From contig JARGPR010000003.1 of assembly GCA_029210125.1 (NCBI GenBank), positions 124,001-188,000 of the forward strand: DNA of 64,000 bases, given 5' to 3'. The DNA comes from Pseudomonadales bacterium (GTDB lineage Bacteria; Pseudomonadota; Gammaproteobacteria; Pseudomonadales; JAHRWD01). Position 1 is the first letter of the stretch, and each line of letters opens with the position of its first letter. This document shows positions 17,850-22,442 of this stretch, in pieces. The notes beneath the pieces were generated by a model that had not been told where the DNA came from, did no database searches, and saw only the letters and a program-made list of their open reading frames with translations. A program made the translations under genes and the position numbers.

Positions 17850-18533
17850 TTAGAGTGTTTCTATATTCAAACAACCTGCGATTTCTTTACCTGTGGGGTC
17901 CTCAAGGTGAGGCACGATACCAAGGCAAGGTTCTGGAATTTGACGTTTTAATGTTTCAAGGTTTTCCTGGTAGCAGGACATCTCGGCATCAACACGGTTG
18001 GCTACCCAACCAGCAACTGATAAACCGTCGGCACGGATCGCCTCTAAACTCAGCATTGCGTGATTAATACAGCCTAACCGCATACTTACCACCAAGATCA
18101 CTGGCAAGTTCAACATTTTAGCGACATCGGCAAAGGTTTCTGTACGGTTAATTGGTACCCGCCAGCCCCCTGCGCCCTCGACCAATGTAATACCCGATTC
18201 AAGGTTTAAAATCTTACGGCAATACTCGGTTAACTGTTCCGCACTCACTTCAACCCCGACCTGCTCCGCTGCAATATGGGGTGCAATGGCGGGTTCAAGC
18301 GCAATGGGATTCACCTGCGAATAGGGCAATGACAAAGTCATGGCATCCATCAGTTCAAGGGCGTCTTCGTTTTGAAAACCATCGGCTGTTTGCTCACAAC
18401 CCGCCGCCATCGGTTTGACCGCTGCACTGCTGAGGCCACGTTGGCGAGCATATTCGAGAATACCGCAGGCGATGCGGGTTTTTCCGACATCGGTATCGGT
18501 GCCGGTTACAAAGTAGCTAACAGGTGCTTTCAC
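17850..18533 (-). CDS. bioD: Dethiobiotin synthetase
   Basis: BioD closes the ureido ring: 7,8-diaminopelargonate plus CO2 and ATP gives dethiobiotin. The 227 residues open with the P-loop YFVTGTDTDVGKTRIACG (residues about 7-24), carry the DAPA-binding AVKPMAAGCE and the LVEGAGGWRVP loop, and end with the nucleotide-base region. Length and motifs are normal. It follows bioC by 30 bases. Confidence 0.96.
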   Translation of the reverse strand: MKAPVSYFVTGTDTDVGKTRIACGILEYARQRGLSSAAVKPMAAGCEQTADGFQNEDALELMDAMTLSLPYSQVNPIALEPAIAPHIAAEQVGVEVSAEQLTEYCRKILNLESGITLVEGAGGWRVPINRTETFADVAKMLNLPVILVVSMRLGCINHAMLSLEAIRADGLSVAGWVANRVDAEMSCYQENLETLKRQIPEPCLGIVPHLEDPTGKEIAGCLNIETL

Positions 18534-18563: not shown

Positions 18564-19394
18564 TCAGGCAACGGAAATTCCGTAATAAACTTCATAGGTC
18601 GCGGGTAAGACCCCATCTTTACTACGAAACTGCTCATAATTTTCAATCAGTTTTTTGATGCGGTTCTTGCCCGTCAAACCACTGGATTGCTGCTCATTCA
18701 TATTATGAGCACCGAGGCTTTTTAGCTCTTTGGTCAGCTGATTTAGACGCTGATATTCCAGCACAATGTCGTGACTGCTGAGGTCTGCCGAAAAAAACGA
18801 TTGTCCAGCCATTAACTGCTCCACACATTCAAATGGCATAAATTCATTCACATGAACGTGCTGATCAATCGGTCTCCAGGCTTCTTTTAATTCGTACAGG
18901 GTTCTTGGGCCTAGTGTTGAAAATGCCAGTACGCCTCCGGGTTTTAATGCCCGTTTGGCTTCACGAATAAATGCTTCGAGATCACCGCACCACTGGACTA
19001 CCAGACTGGAATAAATCAGATCAAAACTATTGTCAGCAAAGGGAAGGTTTTCGACATCTGCTTGCGCCCAATGGGTGCGCGATTGTTCTGTTTCGGTAGT
19101 TTTATCCACTGCGTAACTCAACATTCCGGCGGCGAGATCAATCGCGTAGATCTGCTCCGGGTTGTGTTGCTTGGTCAATTGACGGGTAAAGTAGCCGGTT
19201 CCGCAACCCGCATCGAGAATGGTCTTTGCTTCGATGCTTTGGGGTATTTTAGCCAGTAACTCATTACCGACCTGCTGCTGCAACTGCGCGACTGAATCAT
19301 AACTGGCGGCGGAGCGACTAAAGGATGCGGCAATGCGGGATTTGTCGACCGGCGCGGGGCTGTATGATTCGTTCATGGGTTGAGTACTGCTCAT
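18564..19394 (-). CDS. bioC: Malonyl-ACP O-methyltransferase
   Basis: BioC methylates malonyl-ACP so that fatty-acid synthesis can build the pimeloyl chain of biotin. At 276 aa it shows the BioC N-terminus (SRIAASFSRSAASYDSVAQLQQ), motif I ILDAGCGTGYFTRQL, IDLAAGMLSYA and the later NSFDLIYSSLVVQWC. Its start overlaps the bioF stop by 4 bases, indicating coupling. BioC needs BioH to free pimeloyl-ACP; no bioH lies between bioF and bioC here, unlike in Pseudomonas. Confidence 0.94.
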   Translation of the reverse strand: MSSTQPMNESYSPAPVDKSRIAASFSRSAASYDSVAQLQQQVGNELLAKIPQSIEAKTILDAGCGTGYFTRQLTKQHNPEQIYAIDLAAGMLSYAVDKTTETEQSRTHWAQADVENLPFADNSFDLIYSSLVVQWCGDLEAFIREAKRALKPGGVLAFSTLGPRTLYELKEAWRPIDQHVHVNEFMPFECVEQLMAGQSFFSADLSSHDIVLEYQRLNQLTKELKSLGAHNMNEQQSSGLTGKNRIKKLIENYEQFRSKDGVLPATYEVYYGISVA

Positions 19395-20575
19395 AAATTC
19401 GCACTCAGATTTCGGTTGCTACAGGCCTTATCGAGAGCCTCTAGCAATGCCGCAATATGTTGATCTGTATGGCCTGCGGTCAGGGTGATACGTAATCGAG
19501 ATGTGCCCTCGGGCACTGTGGGTGGGCGAATCGCGCTGATCAGGAACCCTGCCCGTCGCAGCTCTTCACTGATCTCGATTGCCTGTTTGGCATCCCCCAC
19601 ATGCAGAGGCTGGATAGGGGTCAGGGATGGCATCAGGTTTAAGCCGATCCGCTCTGCCCCACTACGAAAAGTGCTAATTAACTCTGCCAGATGCTGGCGC
19701 CGCCAAGGCTCTGTTTTAATCAACCCAAGGCTGGTTCGAGTAGCAGCGGCCACCGCTGGCGGCAGCGCCGTGGTGTAAATATAGGTACGGGCGTTTTGAA
19801 TCAGGGTTTCTATCAGTTCCTCAGAACCCGCAATAAAAGCCCCAAAAGTGCCTAGCGCCTTACCGAGGGTGCCCATCAAAATAGGCACCTCCTGCTGGGG
19901 CAGATTGAACTGCTCCAGTGTGCCGCTGCCTTTTGCGCCTAAAAAACCGATGCCGTGGGCATCATCCACCATTAGCCAGGCTTGATGCTGTTGGGTGACC
20001 GAGGCCAACTCTGGCACCGGAGCCAAATCACCGTCCATGCTAAAAACGCCATCGGTGACGACCAGTTTCCGATTACCTTTGGTATGCCTTAACGTTTCTT
20101 CGAGGTGAGCACAGTCATTGTGACGGTAGCGTTTAAGAGTTGCTCGGCTAAGCAGAGCCGCATCGATCAGGGATGCGTGGTTGAGGCGATCTTCAAAAAC
20201 CGCATCGTTTCGACCACATAGAGCGGAGATTACCCCAAGATTGGCCATGTATCCGGTTGAAAACAGCAGCGCCCGGTCGCGGCCGGTAAATTCTGCCAGT
20301 TCAAGTTCAAGGTTCTGGTGTGCTGAGGAGTGACCATTGATCAGGTGCGATGCACCGCTGCCAACCCCGTAGCGGTTGGCAGCGTCTTTGAAAGATTGAA
20401 CCAAGTCCGGATGGTTGGCTAACCCAAGGTAATCATTGCTGCAGAAATTCAGATAGTCCCTGCCCTCAACTTTTATTTCAGAACCCTGTGGCGACTGCAC
20501 TTCAAGCCGCTTTCTATACAGGTGCTGCTGCTTTTTTTCAGCAAGGCCTTCGGCTAAATTAAAAGGGTCGGACAT
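19391..20575 (-). CDS. bioF: 8-amino-7-oxononanoate synthase
   Basis: A PLP-dependent alpha-oxoamine synthase that condenses pimeloyl-ACP (or CoA) with alanine. The 394 residues carry the family motifs: NFCSNDYLGLANHP (about 42-55), GSGASHLINGHSSAHQ, MVDDAHGIGFLG, and the PLP lysine in PILMGTLGKALGTFGAFI. Third-last of the operon, with a 45-base gap after bioB and a 4-base overlap with bioC. Confidence 0.96.
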   Translation of the reverse strand: MSDPFNLAEGLAEKKQQHLYRKRLEVQSPQGSEIKVEGRDYLNFCSNDYLGLANHPDLVQSFKDAANRYGVGSGASHLINGHSSAHQNLELELAEFTGRDRALLFSTGYMANLGVISALCGRNDAVFEDRLNHASLIDAALLSRATLKRYRHNDCAHLEETLRHTKGNRKLVVTDGVFSMDGDLAPVPELASVTQQHQAWLMVDDAHGIGFLGAKGSGTLEQFNLPQQEVPILMGTLGKALGTFGAFIAGSEELIETLIQNARTYIYTTALPPAVAAATRTSLGLIKTEPWRRQHLAELISTFRSGAERIGLNLMPSLTPIQPLHVGDAKQAIEISEELRRAGFLISAIRPPTVPEGTSRLRITLTAGHTDQHIAALLEALDKACSNRNLSANL

Positions 20576-20620: not shown

Positions 20621-21631
20621 CTAGCTAGCCGCATCGTAAAAAAGCGCTGCTTCTTTACGGCGTGGTTTTGCTGCGGTTTCGTCATATTCTTCAGATTGAA
20701 TACCGAGTCGCTCGAACAGCTGCATATCATCGCTTTGCTGCGGAAGAGGACAGGTTAATAGTTTTTCACCACAGAAAATTGAGTTGGCTCCAGCGAAAAA
20801 ACACATTGCCTGCAGTTGGTCGTTCATATCATCACGACCGGCGGAAATTCTGACCTGACTATGGGGCATCAGGATACGGGCAACGGCAATCGTGCGGACA
20901 AAATCAAAGGGATCAAGATCTTCAATATCATCCAGCGGTGTACCTTCCACTTTGATGAGATTGTTGATCGGTACACTTTCAGGGTGTACCGGCAAATTCG
21001 CCAGTTGCATGAGCAAACCGGCGCGATCATTAGCACCTTCACCCATACCAACAATGCCACCACTACAGATCTTCATACCCGCATCACGCACACGACTTAG
21101 GGTATCAAGACGATCCTGATAGTTTCGGGTCGTAATAATGGAGTCGTAAAATTCCGGCGAGGTATCAAGGTTGTGGTTGTAATAATCCAGTCCGGCATCC
21201 GCTAATTCTGCGGTCTGTTCATCACTCAACATGCCGAGGGTCATGCAGGTTTCCATGCCCATCTCTTTAACCTGTTTGACCATATCCAGCACGTAGGGCA
21301 TATCTGCAACAGGCGGCGAACGCCAGGCCGCCCCCATACAAAAACGGGTTGCTCCGGCCTCTTTGGCGCGACGAGCTTCTTCGATAACCTTCTCAACCTC
21401 CATCAACTTCTGTTTCTCAAGGCCGGTGTTATAGTGGGCGCTCTGGGGGCAGTATTTGCAATCCTCGGGGCAGGCTCCGGTTTTGATGGAGAGTAAGGTA
21501 CTCACCTGCACTTCATTCGGATTATGAAATTTGCGATGTACCGTATGAGCCTGAAACAACAGGTCATTCATCGGTTGATCAAATAGTTGTGTAACTTCCT
21601 GGAGACTCCAGTTGTGGCGTATCTCATTCAT
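20621..21631 (-). CDS. bioB: Biotin synthase
   Basis: A radical-SAM enzyme that inserts sulfur into dethiobiotin. The CxxxCxxC cluster motif is in [19 protein letters not shown] (about residues 50-68), and [10 protein letters not shown] and the [11 protein letters not shown] segment hold the SAM and substrate residues. At 336 aa it has normal length. It is the first gene of bioBFCD, and its promoter overlaps a BirA-type operator at 21713-21745. Confidence 0.97.
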
Positions 21632-21691
21632 ATTTGTCAGCCCGTGATGACAGTGCCGAAACGGCGGTTATTACCAAAATTTGAAGACGCA

Positions 21692-21719
21692 ATGATAATG
21701 ATGCCTGACCCGCTGTCAA
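21692..21719 (-). promoter_or_regulatory. Sigma-70 promoter of the bio operon
   Basis: On the minus strand TTGACA (21714-21719) is separated by 16 bases from TATCAT (21692-21697). The -35 hexamer lies inside the left arm of the BirA-type operator, so bound repressor would block it. The bioB start codon is 61 bases downstream of the -10. Confidence 0.7.
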
Positions 21720-21745
21720 CCAGAAGAGCACTACGTGGTTAACAA
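21713..21745. promoter_or_regulatory. BirA (biotin repressor) operator between bioB and comF
   Basis: CTGTCAACC, 15 bases, then GGTTAACAA form an interrupted palindrome that closely resembles the gammaproteobacterial BirA box (TTGTAAACC-N14/16-GGTTTACAA). One arm covers the bioB -35 and the other covers codons 1 to 4 of comF. Biotinoyl-AMP-bound BirA should therefore repress bioBFCD and may hinder comF expression. Confidence 0.72.
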
Positions 21746-22442
21746 CTGGCTGAATAAAATACCGTCCTGGTTATTTCCCCACCGCTGCGTACTTTGCAAC
21801 GCGGCGGGACAATCAACATTAGATCTGTGCATTCACTGCCAACGGGATTTACCGTGGCTGGATTCTACCTGCCAGCGCTGTGGCTGGCCGATTGAGTCCT
21901 CTCAAAGCTATCGTCAATGTGGCCGCTGCCTTAATCAGACTTTAGCTTACGACCGTGCGATTTCACTGCTGGAGTACCGTTGGCCTATCGATCAGATGGT
22001 GATTGAACTCAAATTCCAGAAGAATCGTGCCCACGCGAGGGTGCTTGCGACGTTGATGGCAGAGTTTCTGCCTCATCATTACGATAATCAATCACTCCCG
22101 CAGCTCATTACCAGTGTACCGATGCACCCCCAACGACTGTGGGAACGGGGTTTTAATCAGGCGGATCTGATCGCTAAGCGGATCGCGGGGCTACTGGGTA
22201 TTCCTTACGCTCCGAACCTGGCCCGCAGAACCCGTTATTCAAAACCCCAAACCGGATTAAACGCCCAACAGCGGGCCGCCAATATCGCTGGCTGTTTTGA
22301 ATGTGACTTACCCAATTGCGAATCGATTGCTATCGTTGATGATGTGCTCACCACCGGTAGTACCACCCATGAATTAAGTAAGCAGTTTCGAAAAACCGGT
22401 GTAGAGCAGATACATATCTGGACCTTGGCACGAACGCTCTAA
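21735..22442 (+). CDS. comF: ComF-family amidophosphoribosyltransferase-like protein
   Basis: A 235-residue protein with an N-terminal zinc-ribbon region (CVLCNAAGQSTLDLCIHC, then CQRCGWPIES and CGRC) and a C-terminal phosphoribosyltransferase fold with the PRPP loop IAIVDDVLTTGSTTHE. ComF proteins are needed for DNA uptake in naturally competent bacteria, and the type IV pilus motor genes nearby would fit, but the biochemical role is unclear. Translation starts at GTG 21735, with AGAAGAG at suitable spacing; its first codons lie within the BirA operator. It is convergent with proC. Confidence 0.87.
   Translation: MVNNWLNKIPSWLFPHRCVLCNAAGQSTLDLCIHCQRDLPWLDSTCQRCGWPIESSQSYRQCGRCLNQTLAYDRAISLLEYRWPIDQMVIELKFQKNRAHARVLATLMAEFLPHHYDNQSLPQLITSVPMHPQRLWERGFNQADLIAKRIAGLLGIPYAPNLARRTRYSKPQTGLNAQQRAANIAGCFECDLPNCESIAIVDDVLTTGSTTHELSKQFRKTGVEQIHIWTLARTL

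Follow-up and report, generated by a model that had tools for sequence, protein, structure and literature searches.

The window analyzed here is a 64,000-nucleotide stretch of DNA located on contig C14 of an assembly totaling 3.13 Mb. It contains four biotin genes that run leftward on the minus strand from position 21631: bioB, encoding biotin synthase (20621-21631; TIGR00433, 410 bits), bioF (19391-20575; TIGR00858), bioC (18564-19394; TIGR02072), and bioD (17850-18533; TIGR00347), each matching its model above cut-off. Divergent from bioB, on the plus strand, lies a comF/gntX-like gene (21735-22442) for a protein of 235 amino acids with a double zinc ribbon (PF18912, above cut-off) and a phosphoribosyltransferase-like region (PF00156, below cut-off). 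The NCBIfam models for GntX (NF008616) and ComF (TIGR00201) cover most of this protein, scoring 167 and 116 bits, respectively, both under the curated cut-offs.

Between the two transcription units, and reaching into comF, is an inverted repeat of 33 bp, CTGTCAACC-N15-GGTTAACAA (21713-21745), assigned as a BirA operator by motif match, rarity, and conservation. It has one mismatch to TTGTMAACC-N15-GGTTWACAA, and the general BirA consensus is the inverted repeat TTGTNAACC-N14-16-GGTTNACAA. Read on the minus strand, the left arm CTGTCAACC (21713-21721) holds the predicted bioB -35 element, TTGACA (21719-21714), placing the operator at the promoter of the biotin genes. With the -10 element TATCAT (21697-21692), this forms the promoter TTGACA-16-TATCAT (21692-21719, minus strand; 11/12 consensus). 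The E. coli operator arm reads GTAAAC; the left arm here contains GTCAAC instead, which fits a -35. The 15-base spacer (21722-21736) presumably provides the comF ribosome-binding region on the plus strand, and it includes bases 1 and 2 of the GTG start codon. The right arm GGTTAACAA (21737-21745, plus strand) completes codon 1 with its first base, holds codons 2 and 3 in full, and contributes two bases to codon 4. The whole arrangement, bounded by the bioB -10 and the right arm, spans 21692-21745.

Motif scans support the assignment. With up to two mismatches allowed, the 64 kb window contains no match besides the operator; the expectation from shuffled sequence is 0.02 sites. Across the 3.13 Mb genome, scanned with the N15 spacer only, it is the single site with 0-1 mismatches, followed by two sites with 2 mismatches each; raising the limit to 3 mismatches yields 18 rows, in which some palindromes count once per strand, versus 8 for a reversed control pattern. 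The first-pass annotation had described a near-consensus biotin-repressor site whose arms coincide with the bioB -35 and with comF codons 1 to 4, and both the scan, in which this is the best N15 site genome-wide, and the positions given above bear it out. The idea that BirA controls further genes in this genome was considered and rejected: the two 2-mismatch sites lie in regions that we read as DUF1820/miaB-like and mfd-like, and bioA is without a site.

The comF gene opens at GTG 21735-21737 (GTG GTT AAC AAC; peptide MVNNWL); no other in-frame ATG, GTG, or TTG occurs between the preceding stop and a point 75 bases beyond the GTG. Within the window's spacer there is only a weak AGAAGAG, which falls outside our definition of a Shine-Dalgarno-like 4-mer; the spacer of a genus mate (L033) contains such a 4-mer. 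A weak candidate comF promoter, TTACCA-17-GATAAT (21671-21699, plus strand; 9/12), has a -10 element overlapping that of bioB and would place the mRNA start approximately 7 bases before the operator. No conserved comF promoter emerged from operator-anchored base frequencies across genera (62-genus alignment), and since the position of the candidate is not conserved, its role as the comF promoter is uncertain. In the same alignment, a -10-like ATNNTA block is kept at the matching operator distance on the bioB side.

Conservation was assessed in relatives of the window's genome. Counting the window's own, 53 of 56 genomes gave a comF match; at 28 of 31 comF loci, bioB is adjacent and divergent. 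The three loci without nearby bioB (L040, L045, and L053) were excluded from the operator count, and L001 was dropped as an apparent copy of L033. Sixty further bioB-upstream regions, a sample that leans toward bioB like the window's, were hand-picked at about one per genus from listed places among 230 matching genomes. The combined set comprises 87 regions, each from a different genome, and represents 76 genera and 36 families of the order. With a motif tuned on some of the loci scored, 82/87 regions reach an operator score of at least 13/18, versus 43/1740 dinucleotide shuffles (2.5%), and five fall below 13. With the E. coli consensus, the corresponding figures are 71/87 regions and 36/1740 mononucleotide shuffles. 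TGTCAA is present in the left arm of 64 of the 82 operator-bearing regions, and comF was found divergent in 78 of the 87. The first-pass annotation had made its proposal depend on the site being conserved upstream of bioB in relatives, and it is.

Thirteen further bioB regions were recovered by tblastn (one genome, G008, is in both sets), seven of which score at least 13. The six misses belong to G004, G047, G038, G005, G018, and G013. For the last three, all below 13, no explanation was found; G004 and G047, from one genus, encode a BirA lacking the DNA-binding domain. G038 is operator-less at bioB and has a 15/18 site at its bioA instead (L145; see also L131), as though the operator had been relocated from one gene to the other. 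Otherwise, bioA is devoid of the site: one of 30 upstream regions, with 5′ ends set by tblastn, reaches 13, and 29 lack it. Five of the seven regions of family f37 (L042, L077, L081, L118, and L127) show a comF start within the spacer and a right arm that is degenerate in part, with scores of 11-13, whereas the remaining two (L099 and L104) score 16 and 17; the BirA of one member, G037 (L016), retains its DNA-binding domain. Because the operator persists where no comF was found within 900 bases (e.g., L103, L112, and L113), and where the right arm is not read in frame, selection on it is explained by bioB alone. Control of bioB by BirA is near certain.

At L143 (2817-3350, minus strand), a 177-residue ORF that we read as alpha/beta-hydrolase-like stops 41 bases short of the bioA ORF, and it is a candidate for the pimeloyl-ACP methyl ester esterase. 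When searched with the strict curated BioH cut-off, which only 1 of 14 control genomes passes, the genome gave no match.

The identity of the regulator deserves comment, given that birA was not found in the window's assembly. This is the one point in favor of assigning the site to a regulator other than BirA. In the domain scan, which covers 20 of 30 birA loci, HTH_11 is present in 17 of the 20 BirA proteins and absent from those of G010, G047, and G004. G010 has no bioB match, and in the genus of G004 and G047 the bioB site is missing along with the DNA-binding domain, as would be expected of a BirA operator. The site also matches the BirA consensus and stands at a biotin operon. The missing gene is probably an assembly gap: birA is absent in 13 of 56 genomes, coaX is also absent in 11 of these 13, and birA lies on contigs of only 3.2-4.3 kb in five relatives. 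In the window's genome (G000), both birA and coaX are missing, and the SecE match starts at base 485 of contig C10 (L184). The usual place of birA is between an rRNA operon and tuf/secE, and the pattern suggests that a small contig between repeats was lost from the assembly. On the same grounds, true loss of birA was rejected as the simplest reading, and a different regulator is very improbable.

The overlap with comF is not confined to the window. Phase and codon tests were carried out on the 74 of 78 comF-bearing regions with an operator score of at least 13 (L077, L086, L106, and L127 were dropped). The right arm falls inside the open comF frame in 59/74, and in 51 of those 59 it is read as G-GTT-WAC-AA, a frame found by majority in 25 of 29 families; the arm lies outside this frame in 23/74. 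One reading frame is thus seen directly to predominate. A Val at codon 2 is encoded by GTT in 45/46 cases, against 21% elsewhere in these genes, and an Asn or Tyr at codon 3 has a codon ending in C in 49/50, against 52%; as regions were chosen by operator score, part of this codon bias is built in, yet only 4 of 78 were dropped. The related genomes are non-independent, and p values for codons and frame are descriptive.

As in the window, the first base of the right arm doubles as the last base of a start codon in 25/74 regions from 22 genera and 16 families. This fused start is the most upstream in-frame start in 15 of the 25; in the other 10, another start lies upstream and the true comF start is not certain. 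A Shine-Dalgarno-like 4-mer occurs inside the spacer in 15/25 fused relatives versus 5/49 of the others. A comF tree built from 73 of the 74 rows, with bootstrap values that had not settled, requires 15 changes of the fused state, compared with a mean of 21.0 after shuffling; six of the 15 are forced by well supported branches. The comF start has therefore moved repeatedly around a fixed operator. The three comF genes without adjacent bioB start differently and lack Met-Val-Tyr/Asn.

Two alternative accounts of the overlap itself can be weighed against these data. The first-pass annotation had raised the possibility that the comF start is set wrongly, the true protein beginning downstream of the operator. 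The GTG codon and the weak ribosome-binding sequence in the window's genome would fit such an error, but there is no other in-frame start between the upstream stop and 75 bases past the GTG, a start in equal register recurs in 25/74 relatives, in other orders too, and is the most upstream one in 15, and the Trp-Leu that follows the right arm is common to several families. A wrong annotation is accordingly most unlikely, and that suspicion was not upheld. The inverted repeat could also act as a hairpin in comF mRNA that hides the start codon, the arms being partly complementary with the ribosome-binding region between them. Folding of the leader, however, is no better than in shuffles (z of 0.21 for the window, 0.03 for L173, and -1.05 for L176), and position 5 of the arms, C on the left in 97% and T or A on the right in 92%, does not pair in most of the 62 genera; this account is barely credible.

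The element extends beyond the order. The exact fused pattern is present in 20 of 369 genomes of the class, the window's own included, and a reversed control in 0/369. In 8 of 11 loci examined, from the 19 other than the window's, comF opens in frame with a bioB-like gene divergent; at two of the 11 loci, L172 and L180, the bioB-like neighbor has only 33-36% identity to the window's bioB. At L172 the GTG is out of the comF frame, and in L178 and L179, from one family, bioB is present and no comF was found. L178 ends approximately 100 bases past the site, and thus the case rests on L179, where a perfect fused operator (at about position 1522 in site orientation) is followed by letters that still read MVYKWL before running into stops. 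It is possible that these letters, in L179 and L178, are the relic of a comF start kept by the operator. The operator and its overlap with both the bioB promoter and comF are real and widely conserved.

From these observations we infer binding by BirA, repression of bioB, and an effect on comF. Our preferred reading, with a probability of roughly 0.6, is that the operator is a BirA site serving both the bioB -35 and the comF start, so that the bound dimer would repress bioBFCD and should hinder comF. The same 33 bp would then combine a BirA binding site, the bioB -35, and three parts of comF: its ribosome-binding region, its start codon, and codons 2-4. With plentiful biotin, a dimer of BirA-biotinyl-AMP would cover the bioB -35, turning bioBFCD off, and should hinder comF transcription, either at initiation or as a roadblock; under biotin starvation, bioBFCD and comF would both be freed. 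Since comF translation starts within the operator, comF mRNA must start to the left of or inside it, and a bound dimer should therefore stand in the way of its transcription. BirA control of comF is plausible on this geometry, from which it follows only if bound BirA impedes the polymerase.

The main competing explanation is that the operator regulates bioB only, the overlap with comF being a product of compaction in a short divergent intergenic region and biotin having no real effect on comF. On this view, BirA is a weak roadblock or comF is driven from further upstream. Retention of the operator where no comF was found nearby favors this explanation, as do the 23/74 regions in which the right arm is not read in the comF frame seen here, a comF start that shifts position against the operator (on the best comF tree the fused label changes 15 times, six of these changes being forced by well supported branches), and the lack of a conserved comF promoter. 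It accounts less readily for a start codon within the operator in many genera, where comF transcription cannot begin past the bound repressor, or for an overlap that spans wide distances, other orders included. In two genomes, moreover, G044 (L165) and G026 (L162), comF is followed immediately on its own strand by bioA, no terminator-like site separating the two, so that a transcript from the comF side probably includes a biotin gene downstream of the operator. This order, found by our reading of the match positions in only 2 of 48 genomes with a bioA match above cut-off, recalls the E. coli arrangement and mildly supports control of the comF side. Regulation of bioB alone is thus a substantial minority possibility, and we retain joint control of bioBFCD and comF as the working interpretation. 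A broader proposal, which we hold tentatively and at somewhat under even odds, is that this is an old element of the Gammaproteobacteria, in which a single 33-bp operator, bioB -35, and comF start lets biotin jointly gate biotin synthesis and a DNA-uptake or recycling gene, and in which the operator has dictated the Met-Val-Tyr/Asn N-terminus of ComF.

Joint control of this kind has a well-known precedent. In E. coli, as described in PMC5438404, a BirA dimer on an operator between divergent genes represses both in response to biotin. The locus described here resembles that bioA/bioBFCD system, as depicted there, in placing one BirA site between two divergent genes. It differs in that the divergent partner is comF/GntX-like and not a biotin gene, in that the site extends into the coding sequence of the partner, and in that bioA, which has no site, is found on a separate contig. 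A comFC/gntX-bioH pair is known in Serratia and other bacteria (Akatsuka and co-workers, cited in PMC5438404), and similarly sets a divergent ComF-family gene beside a biotin gene; the neighbor there, in contrast, is bioH, which that paper describes as not BirA-regulated in E. coli. The figure legend of PMC9302846 names ComF in a panel of bioH neighborhoods with BirA/BioQ sites marked by dots, and that figure, as far as its legend indicates, may already draw a site beside comF. In a RegPrecise-type reconstruction of BirA regulons in Proteobacteria (PMC5343134), comF occurs 0 times in the main text. Searches of open-access papers showed no report of a link or overlap between BirA and comF, and a prior listing of comF is possible in subscription papers, supplements, or RegPrecise.

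The overlap is common to many related bacteria and not peculiar to the window's genome. It represents a natural case in which a repressor site constrains the N-terminus of a protein, leaving the synonymous positions of codons 2 and 3 nearly fixed. The supply of biotin may also influence the neighbor from the ComF (DNA-uptake) family, and the preferred reading predicts that comF mRNA falls when biotin is added. If comF is indeed controlled by BirA, a gene outside biotin metabolism would join a textbook vitamin regulon in a large bacterial group, and cofactor supply would be linked to a competence-family protein.
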